A stretch of DNA of 64,000 bases from Haladaptatus sp. QDMS2 (GTDB lineage: Archaea > Halobacteriota > Halobacteria > Halobacteriales > Halococcaceae), in assembly GCF_029338295.1 (NCBI RefSeq), contig NZ_CP119791.1, positions 558,001 through 622,000 on the forward strand, read 5' to 3'. Shown here piece by piece: positions 12,011 through 59,460 of this stretch (the first letter of the stretch is position 1; the number at the start of each line of letters is the position of its first letter). Both the position numbers and the translations under genes were made by a program. The notes under the pieces are model-generated. The model made no database searches and was not told the origin of the DNA. It worked only from the letters and a program-made list of their open reading frames with translations.

Positions 12011-12122
12011 GGCCTCGCTTCGTCTGTGGGCTTGTGAGGGCCTGACACTCACGTTTGTGAGACTTTCGAGGGGTCCGTGGTTCGCCCCGCCCTCACACGA
12101 TTTCGTACCCGATTCGCAACTC

Positions 12123-12176: not shown

Positions 12177-12247
12177 GCGCTGATAGTGTAGTGGTATCAC
12201 GTGACCTTGCCATGGTCACAACCTGGGTTCAAATCCCAGTCAGCGCA
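12177..12247 (+). tRNA. tRNA-Gly (anticodon GCC)
   Basis: A complete cloverleaf: acceptor GCGCTGA paired with TCAGCGC plus discriminator A, D arm GTG-TAGTGGTAT-CAC, anticodon arm TGACC-TTGCCAT-GGTCA with anticodon GCC, and T arm CTGGG-TTCAAAT-CCCAG. The 71-base length is normal. CCA is not encoded. It lies upstream of and divergent from the ribosomal operon. Its last ten bases plus five flanking bases recur at 12545-12559. Confidence 0.98.
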
Positions 12248-12267
12248 CTTCTACCGAGAACAAAACC

Positions 12268-12536
12268 GTGAGCGACGCAAGCGTCGCTCACACGTTCGTT
12301 CGAGGATGCAGGCGGTACACTGGTGATTTGAATCAGGGAGCGAGAGGTGAGCGAAGCGAACGGGAGCGACCGTGGTTCAAATCCCGAAGTGGTCTGCGAC
12401 CGCTACGATGTTCGCGAAAACTCCGTTTTCGCTCACCTCCAATGCGGAGAAGCCGCATCGAGGCTCGCAATTCCGAAGGAATTGCTCACTTCCCGGCGAA
12501 CAAGTTCGCCGACGTTCGTGAAAGCGCTGCTTTCAC
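12268..12536. repeat. Array of perfect short hairpins downstream of tRNA-Gly
   Basis: Perfect inverted repeats with 2-5 base loops lie at 12268-12291 (11 bp stem), 12414-12432 (8), 12442-12458 (6), 12467-12485 (8), 12494-12511 (8) and 12518-12536 (8). The last five start every 24-28 bases. Their spacers are similar (GCTCACCTCC, GCTCACTTCC, CACTCACTCC). Every stem is fully complementary. Codon-like reading frames across the region look like shadows. Function unknown. Confidence 0.8.
12325..12385 (+). repeat. T-arm echo module after tRNA-Gly
   Basis: The outer inverted repeat is GATTTGAA (12325-12332) and TTCAAATC (12376-12383). Inside are CAGGGAGC (12334-12341) and GCGACCGTGGTTC (12366-12378). 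The segment GGTTCAAATCCC (12374-12385) copies the T-loop and part of the T-stem of tRNA-Gly. The same module recurs after tRNA-Val and tRNA-Met, each time with the T-loop of the neighbouring tRNA. Confidence 0.7.
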
Positions 12537-12678
12537 TCACTCCTAGTCAGCGCACTTCTTCAAATTCAAATCCCTCCCAACGAACCCTCACGCGTGAGCG
12601 TATTCGCTCGCGCGAGTCAAGATAACAATAAAGAGCCACGTCAGCCGAAGAAAAGCCCCACCCCGGGAAAAAGTCGCC

Positions 12679-44569: not shown

Positions 44570-44661
44570 AGACGGCTGGAACTTCGATTGTTTCTTGGTA
44601 GATTTGAACCTCGGTCGCTAGTGCTCCCAAATTCAATCTGAGTTGAGTGCCATCAGAAAGT

Positions 44662-44719
44662 AGTAGGTTCGAGCAGATGTTGAACCACGGTCGCTCGCTC
44701 TGCTCGCTCCCTGGTTCAA
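44662..44719 (-). repeat. Degraded tRNA-Val 3'-end echo and module
   Basis: Read on the minus strand, GCTCCCTG (44706-44713, i.e. CAGGGAGC) and 44682-44694 (GCGACCGTGGTTC) form the shared module, flanked by the inverted repeat TTGAACCA/TGGTTCAA (44680-44687, 44712-44719). The segment 44662-44685 matches the tRNA-Val 3' end plus flank (44793-44815) at all but two positions and one inserted base. Confidence 0.75.
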
Positions 44720-44742
44720 ACTGCCCTCACGTCAAAACGTCA

Positions 44743-44785: not shown

Positions 44786-44794
44786 ATAAGTGAG

Positions 44795-44869
44795 TGGGTT
44801 CGGGCAGATTTGAACTGCCGATCTCCTCCATGTCAAGGAGGTGTCATAACCAGCCTAGACCACGAACCC
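44795..44869 (-). tRNA. tRNA-Val (anticodon GAC)
   Basis: A 75-base cloverleaf on the minus strand: acceptor GGGTTCG/CGAACCC with discriminator A, D arm GTC-TAGGCTGGTTAT-GAC, anticodon arm CCTCC-TTGACAT-GGAGG with anticodon GAC, and T arm GGCAG-TTCAAAT-CTGCC. No intron and no encoded CCA. It lies in the 566-base gap between the small membrane gene and trpD. Confidence 0.97.
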
Positions 44870-59163: not shown

Positions 59164-59315
59164 GCCCGGGTGGCTTAGCTGGACATAGCGCCGCACTCAT
59201 AGGGTTACGAGATTCGGTGCGGAGCCTTGGAAGCTCCCGACATGTTCCCGGAGGCTTTGCCGAGCCTCTAACCTGGGACATGCGGAGATCGAGGGTTCGG
59301 AGCCCTCCCCGGGCA
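59164..59315 (+). tRNA. Elongator tRNA-Met (CAT) with 78-base intron
   Basis: Exons 59164-59201 and 59280-59315 form a 74-base tRNA: acceptor GCCCGGG/CCCGGGC plus A, D arm GCT...AGC, anticodon arm CCGCA-CTCATAA-TGCGG, and T arm GAGGG-TTCGGAG-CCCTC. The intron (59202-59279) lies at position 37/38 and has stems GGTTA/TAACC, GGAGC/GCTCC and GAGGCT/AGCCTC. Haloarchaeal elongator tRNA-Met is known to carry an intron. A box C/D signature is not evident. Confidence 0.93.
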
Positions 59316-59396: not shown

Positions 59397-59460
59397 TGAC
59401 GCGAACAGCGTGAGCGTCATGCAGGGAGCACCGTAGGTGCGACCGTGGTTCGGAGCCCCC
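59397..59460 (+). repeat. T-arm echo module after tRNA-Met
   Basis: TGACGC/GCGTCA (59397-59419) and GCACC-GTA-GGTGC (59428-59440) are perfect hairpins. CAGGGAGC (59422-59429) and GCGACCGTGGTTC (59439-59451) are the shared module, and GGTTCGGAGCCC (59447-59458) copies the T-loop region of tRNA-Met. The T-loop variant (TTCGGAG rather than TTCAAAT) matches this particular tRNA. Confidence 0.75.

Follow-up and report, generated by a model that had tools for sequence, protein, structure and literature searches.

Introduction

Integrative elements accompanied by tRNA remnants are well known, and elements that integrate into tRNA genes classically have, as their attB/attP block, a direct repeat that extends from the T-loop exactly to the 3' end of a tRNA. 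The sites used by archaeal integrases are the anticodon loop, the T-loop or the tRNA 3' end (PMC8371274). In Haloferax gibbonsii, 11 partial tRNAs were reported, several of them directly adjacent to the full copy, as well as integrative elements bounded by tRNA remnants; the available part of that account makes no mention of a module, a hairpin, the structure of an array or a family spread over the class (PMC7921747).

We analyzed here a stretch of 64,000 nucleotides of Haladaptatus sp. QDMS2 (hereafter the window), in which each of three tRNA genes is followed by a short module ending in a copy of part of that tRNA. In the reading that we favor, and which in our estimate has about an even chance of being right, miniature non-coding integrative cassettes are located at tRNA genes and moved by a tyrosine recombinase, and such modules form their outer ends with the attachment site. 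No description of the hairpin module, of its arrays or of its class-wide spread was found in the literature searched, which mostly did not include subscription journals and thus provides weak evidence of absence.

Modules of the window

A preliminary description of the window reported a shared module, CAGGGAGC...GCGACCGTGGTTC, behind the three tRNA genes (Gly, Val, and Met), with the bases that follow GGTTC being those of the neighboring tRNA. Inspection of the sequence agrees with this description (Table 1): the tails are copies of the local T-arm, namely GTTCAAATCCC for Gly, GTTCAA(C)ATCTGC for Val, where an extra degenerate tail CTCGAACC is present, and GTTCGGAGCCC for Met, which diverges after only about 11 bases. 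The left arm of the Met module is unrecognisable and looks degenerate; the tRNA-Met itself is genuine and was missed by the default run of ARAGORN because of its intron. The preliminary description had overlooked a second Val module (unit 2) as well as the remaining part of the Gly tail, which follows about 160 bases after the first part and forms a single unbroken tail in the congeneric genome G248. The sequence that splits the Gly tail (window 12386-12544) consists of about 160 bases of a second kind of hairpin, TTCGC-stem-GCTCAC then TCC, which reads GTGAGC...GCGAAC on the opposite strand. Behind Arg-cct, Arg-tct, and Ala-cgc, hairpins of a similar kind are found ahead of shorter tail copies whose start lies in the T-stem.

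Two other structures lie upstream of tRNA-Gly. A long imperfect palindrome, GTGAGGGC...GCCCTCAC with CCGTGGTTCGCCCC (window 12020-12110), is located just upstream of the gene; it has no Rfam match and may be either a remnant or some unrelated structured RNA. The minus strand at 11500-11602 matches RF03135, the L4-Archaeoglobi ribosomal protein leader (74.1 bits for a cut-off of 34.5).

Table 1. Position of tRNA genes, modules and tail copies in the window
Feature	Position	Strand	Basis
tRNA-Gly(GCC); 3' block 53-73 at 12227-12247	12177..12248	+	ARAGORN, sequence
Hairpin A of the Gly unit, starting ~10 nt past the tRNA end	12258..12301	+	Inverted repeat I1, 81% complementary
Gly left arm, inverted T-loop/T-stem copy CTGGTGATTTGAATCA	12320..12335	+	Sequence
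Gly module proper: GGGAGC, variable hairpin, GCGACC-GTG-GTTC	12336..12378	+	Sequence; DNA fold pairs both arms
Gly tail copy GTTCAAATCCC of tRNA-Gly 53-63	12375..12385	+	Sequence, repeat analysis
Remaining Gly tail AGTCAGCGCACTTCT	12545..12559	+	Direct repeat D2, 95%
tRNA-Val(GAC); 3' block 53-73 at 44795-44815	44794..44869	-	ARAGORN, sequence
Val unit 1: left arm 44712-44726, stem/hairpin 44689-44711, tail copy 44666-44685	44666..44726	-	Sequence; DNA fold z -2.58
Val unit 2: CTCAGATTGAATTTGGGAGC-ACTA-GCGACCGAG-GTTCAAATCTACC	44597..44643	-	Sequence, pattern search
tRNA-Met(CAT), 78-nt intron; 3' block 59295-59315	59164..59315	+	ARAGORN with introns, Rfam RF00005
Met module CAGGGAGC-ACCGTAGGT-GCGACCGTG with tail copy GTTCGGAGCCC	59422..59458	+	Sequence, repeat analysis

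Anatomy of the module and its tail

The extent of the copied block was examined position by position in 104 modules that had been found without using the tail, each being compared to its own tRNA and to other tRNAs. From position 57 to position 73, the tail tracks the tRNA to which it belongs (z mostly between 6 and 10, weaker at the near-invariant positions 58-61), and agreement remained at control level at positions 43-52 and from +1 to +20. Since tracking is limited to 57-73 and positions 53-56 are invariant, hence uninformative for the border, the copied block is tRNA 53(-57) to exactly 73, i.e., from the T-loop to the mature 3' end, with a left border between 52 and 57. The preliminary description had left room for a tail that would not follow its neighbor beyond GGTTC; the position-wise controls rule out this generic motif as the sole cause of the agreement.

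The module itself is composed, in this order, of an inverted T-arm, GG-GA-GC, a variable hairpin, GC-GA-CC, an unpaired G, and the tRNA tail. The left arm is an inverted copy of positions 57-65 only of the own tRNA (z up to 7.7 in 85 modules, and 4.6-6.9 over the T-stem positions 62-65), and the acceptor stem gives no comparable tracking signal in this arm. Among 97 distinct modules, the two arms pair beyond shuffles at positions 57-63 (z 2.9-9.2) except at position 60 (z -0.5), and the first inner pair is G-C in 78 and A-T in 14, with five exceptions. Non-standard pairs of the outer stem comprise 70 G.T vs. 35 A.C, which favors folding of the tRNA-sense strand, either as RNA or as single-stranded DNA. 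The structural case rests on this covariation and not on folding energy, which is weakly unusual for single modules (z -0.6 to -2.6). None of the modules in the five loci searched matched an Rfam family.

A second hairpin (hairpin A) is present between the tRNA and the module, whose own hairpin is called B; in many cases both are built alike, with a stem, GA/GA, two pairs, and a loop. In both, two Watson-Crick pairs alternate with tandem GA/GA, and the ends are GAA, GNNA, or T-rich three-base loops. Tandem GA/GA stems with such short loops are typical of very stable DNA mini-hairpins. At L308-L313, several families exhibit a variant, GGAACGAGGGAGC...GCGACCGAAGTTCAGGTGGTTCAAATC, in which a second GTTC hairpin lies just before the real tail copy; it occurs behind Thr, Ser, Leu, and Lys tRNAs.

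Distribution in the genome, the genus and the phylum

The exact 13-mer GCGACCGTGGTTC is found three times in the 3,881,291 bases of the source genome (archaeal, 3.88 Mb in three contigs), always within the window and downstream of a same-strand tRNA. When two mismatches are allowed, its count in the window is 6 vs. 5.8 by chance, so that only the exact, structured form of the module is informative. The pattern CAGGGAGC-N(0-30)-GCGACCG-N-GGTTC has seven copies in this genome, every one behind a tRNA, and none in the control read backwards; a chance origin of the module is thus rejected by both the exact 13-mers, all located by tRNAs, and the empty backwards-read controls. A very loose pattern, GGGAGCN2-30GCGACC, showed no enrichment (74 vs. 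86 in the control) and served for leads only. Over the 450 bases downstream of 46 tRNAs of the source genome, the own-tail match reached a mean of 11.17 vs. 7.19 when permuted (sd 0.21, maximum 8.13, 2000 permutations); the upstream side of the same tRNAs scored 7.26, i.e., gave no signal.

One genome per species was then scanned with GGGAGC-N(2-25)-GCGACCG-N-GGTTC, and the loci were read with ARAGORN. Among the matches listed, 39 loci named as haloarchaeal harbor 40 modules, 38 of which are located at most 600 nt downstream of a same-strand tRNA (our own count), and one of the 41 loci named as other than haloarchaea has a same-strand tRNA within 600 bases upstream. The preliminary description had considered that the modules might prove to lie mostly away from tRNA genes; in the haloarchaeal genomes, this search encountered them almost only beside such genes. 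When 247 genomes were drawn from the phylum, 16 of the 43 that belong to the host's order contained the exact pattern and none of the ~204 others did, and a relaxed form was present in 44/146 genomes of this order with a control of zero. Three congeneric genomes contain 37 relaxed modules, 34 of which adjoin a tRNA; two of the three other entries (24450 and 2945785 in G000) are a single locus counted twice, as the contig ends overlap. The last 9 kb of contig C1 of G000 are equal to its bases 21.7-30.8 kb, which implies a terminal overlap of ~31 kb on a circular chromosome, in which any doubled annotation represents one locus.

Carriage by viruses was also considered and rejected, as none of the 13 IMG/VR matches lies near a tRNA and they resemble chance hits in coding sequence. 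Among the matches listed and tallied, a phage search with the Val tRNA retrieved only bacterial phages.

Arrays and their change between congeners

Modules and tails can be repeated behind a single tRNA. Behind tRNA-Val(TAC) of Haloferax profundi stand three tail copies, set apart by unrelated units of ~80-100 bases each. The number of copies varies between congeners: at Leu-caa, G247 is devoid of exactly one unit and one tail relative to two other species of the genus, and its tRNA directly abuts the sequence that elsewhere comes after the first tail copy. The same kind of tRNA-proximal shift is seen at Asn, Tyr, Leu-taa, Cys, and Val-tac, and other loci differ at the far end. Pairwise comparisons of loci among three species of the genus gave 8 proximal and 14 distal differences in copy number, 58 cases with unrelated first trailers, and 44 unchanged cases, the latter counting against frequent movement because many units are found unchanged in place. 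Loss by recombination between the 21-bp repeats could explain part of the differences in copy number.

Integrase-bearing elements at the same sites

Two congeneric loci without an adjoining tRNA carry the tail of a distant one, a tRNA-Lys 3.9 kb upstream in G248 and a tRNA-His 21 kb upstream in the source genome. In G248, tRNA-Lys and its tail copies enclose a 3.7-kb element with a gene for a tyrosine integrase (PF02899, 1.8e-9; PF00589, 2.6e-6). This gene begins ~30 bases from the first tail copy, and mini-units are found further behind, so that a full-size element and mini-units occur in one array. A search with this integrase retrieved relatives in 169/195 genomes of the host's order, and a nearby tail copy begins at position 53 in 7 of the 30 integrase loci examined. 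One of these seven is in the source genome, where a related integrase (42% identity) is encoded beside an Arg-ccg tail, 9.2 kb from tRNA-Arg(CCG). The integrases found here were typed at the level of PF02899/PF00589.

The end hairpin of the integrase elements differs from the conserved GGGAGC/GCGACC one, which speaks against the reading of the modules as ends of miniature cassettes; their left arm resembles that of the module at two loci (L336 and L352), and not clearly in the other elements. The known att sites examined, the attP of halovirus HF1 and that of the Haloferax plasmid pHGLR3, also weigh against this reading: their block is longer, starting in the anticodon arm, and has no module, and both were rejected as elements of the same type.

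Origin of the units

A unit (typically ~75-130 bp) starts at the tRNA 3' end, continues with hairpin A, a spacer, the inverted T-arm copy, and hairpin B, and ends at the T-loop GTTC; a 21-bp direct repeat corresponding to tRNA 53-73 flanks it at either end. The left repeat is the 3' end of the working tRNA, and the right one would be a displaced copy (attR). If the modules are indeed the ends of cassettes, a tyrosine recombinase of haloarchaea, provided in trans, would exchange strands at the T-loop, thereby inserting the unit and restoring the tRNA, from which it would follow that the tail always matches its neighbor; repeated insertions would build the tandem arrays. The architecture, the exact borders of the repeats, the covariation, the linkage to tRNAs across the class, the changes between congeners, and the integrase elements that share these borders are observed; that the units themselves move, and by which recombinase, is our inference. 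Covariation in the arms and in the inner stem suggests that a folded strand is recognised, which may be single-stranded DNA.

The preliminary description had proposed a family of tail-copying elements. A family it is, found almost only by tRNA genes and with a tail that follows its neighbor, but no special copying activity is needed, because the classical attB/attP identity block is just such a repeat from the T-loop to the 3' end, and a tail that is a copy of the attachment site would track its tRNA without such activity. New beyond that description are the inverted T-arm copy, the hairpin with its covariation, the arrangement in tandem arrays, and the integrase elements with the same block.

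Closest to its idea of an element that regenerates the local tail is a duplication of the target. A tail-less element, from hairpin A to hairpin B, would be joined at the tRNA 3' end, and staggered cuts at 53/73 would duplicate the 21-bp tail, as happens when CRISPR arrays acquire spacers or casposons insert. The repeat borders are sharp at both ends, and related hairpin A sequences recur behind different tRNAs (Leu-tag/Leu-taa, Lys-ctt/Val-cac, and Val-gac/Val-cac), each time with the local tail. This recurrence is the main support for target duplication and the point least well explained by a simple circle model, since a circle carrying its tail and landing at another tRNA would swap the tail of that tRNA. 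Target duplication nevertheless leaves unexplained that the left arm tracks the T-stem (62-65) of the same tRNA, and we consider it quite unlikely.

The hairpins and the tail copy could also constitute a functional RNA that is co-transcribed with the tRNA and involved in termination, processing, or regulation, for instance through an inverted arm competing for the T-arm. Covariation of the outer and inner stems and the excess of G.T over A.C pairs are consistent with this, as is the likeness of some first trailers in distant genera (Val-tac). However, copy number ranges from 0 to 3, orthologous tRNAs of congeners often have unrelated trailers (the 58 comparisons above), a T-rich run is often present directly behind the tRNA, Rfam provided no family for the modules of the five loci searched, and the displaced tails of the integrase elements would have no explanation, which together render a functional RNA improbable.

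Non-autonomous elements of the IS200/IS605 type (HUH Y1 transposase) would have end hairpins and a right-end guide pairing, and would insert in single-stranded form after GGTTC. The units do possess two subterminal hairpins, and the GAA(T) that immediately precedes hairpin B pairs with the GTTCAA that immediately follows this hairpin; a guide 5' of the right-end hairpin that pairs with the cleavage site 3' of the hairpin is the geometry of IS608. Elements of this sort, the PATEs, are moreover common in Haloquadratum (PMC3119063). Yet arm pairing reaches position 65, beyond the need of a guide, no left-end guide for GTTC was recognised, and the autonomous elements found in association carry tyrosine integrases, so that this origin appears decidedly improbable. 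Tandem duplication that requires no enzyme of its own, arising when replication slips or recombination occurs around tRNA hairpins, accounts for plain recent duplications at some loci (Gly-gcc and Met-cat in G248, Leu-caa at L186, and Asn in the source genome) but is very unlikely as a general origin, given that adjacent units are mostly unrelated outside the 21-bp tail and that a conserved module occupies the junction throughout the class.

Should the cassette reading hold, tiny mobile elements that have largely escaped notice would be present at a large share of the tRNA genes in a whole class of archaea, and would have exact borders and a hairpin attachment site common to many tRNA types. 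They would represent a natural system for studying the use of folded DNA by a recombinase, the tolerance of tRNA genes to repeated insertion, and the occurrence of tRNA-adjacent "partial tRNAs" in haloarchaeal annotations, and would provide a practical rule for annotating such remnants.

Comparison with known systems

CRISPR arrays and casposon insertions similarly present identical direct repeats, differing inserts and a fixed leader-like sequence, whereas the repeat is here a tRNA tail and the inserts are structured hairpins. The PATEs and SMRs of Haloquadratum are likewise short, transposase-free, palindrome-bearing, and haloarchaeal, but they are not described as tied to tRNAs and cause no duplications (PMC3119063). 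The intact units described here are bounded by 21-bp tails and thus depart from the absence of border direct repeats in PATEs, except if one regards the tail as belonging to the element.

Like the units, integron attC cassettes are arrayed and end in an imperfect hairpin whose arms are conserved and which has an extrahelical base and a variable terminal loop, and their border is at G|TT; the layout of the module, together with its covariation, is analogous to the paired R and L boxes of such a folded site. In contrast to integrons, the target is the T-arm of many tRNAs, no cassette ORFs were seen, and the arm reads GTTCRAA rather than GTTRRRY, GTTC being followed by A or G and a C occupying the first required purine of the R box. 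The fold may by analogy be said to recall both attC and IS200/IS605 ends, and we claim membership in neither, because GTTRRRY is not respected and the borders carry 21-bp repeats. That haloarchaea possess an integron-like system, in which tRNA T-arms would be general landing sites and a recombinase would join cassettes to the T-loop through a folded single-stranded attachment site, leaving non-coding arrays behind many tRNAs, is an idea we regard as unlikely.

The units further resemble the tRNA-targeted elements of archaeal tyrosine recombinases (SNJ2/pNOB8/XerC-type), which have the same repeat of the tRNA 3' block ending at the 3' end, the same border in the T-loop and an intact tRNA, and integrase elements of that kind are found within the same arrays as the mini-units. 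Unlike them, the mini-units measure ~75-130 bp, are non-coding and arranged in tandem, occupy a large share of the tRNAs of a genome, and have a conserved covarying hairpin end; they are too short to encode the integrase that a tRNA-integrating element would carry, and no recombinase was linked to them. The partial tRNAs of H. gibbonsii are probably instances of the same cassettes. Bounded by tRNA-block repeats that stop at the 3' end and bordered in the T-loop, as tRNA-integrating elements are, the mini-units are at most non-autonomous relatives of the tyrosine-recombinase elements that integrate into tRNA genes.
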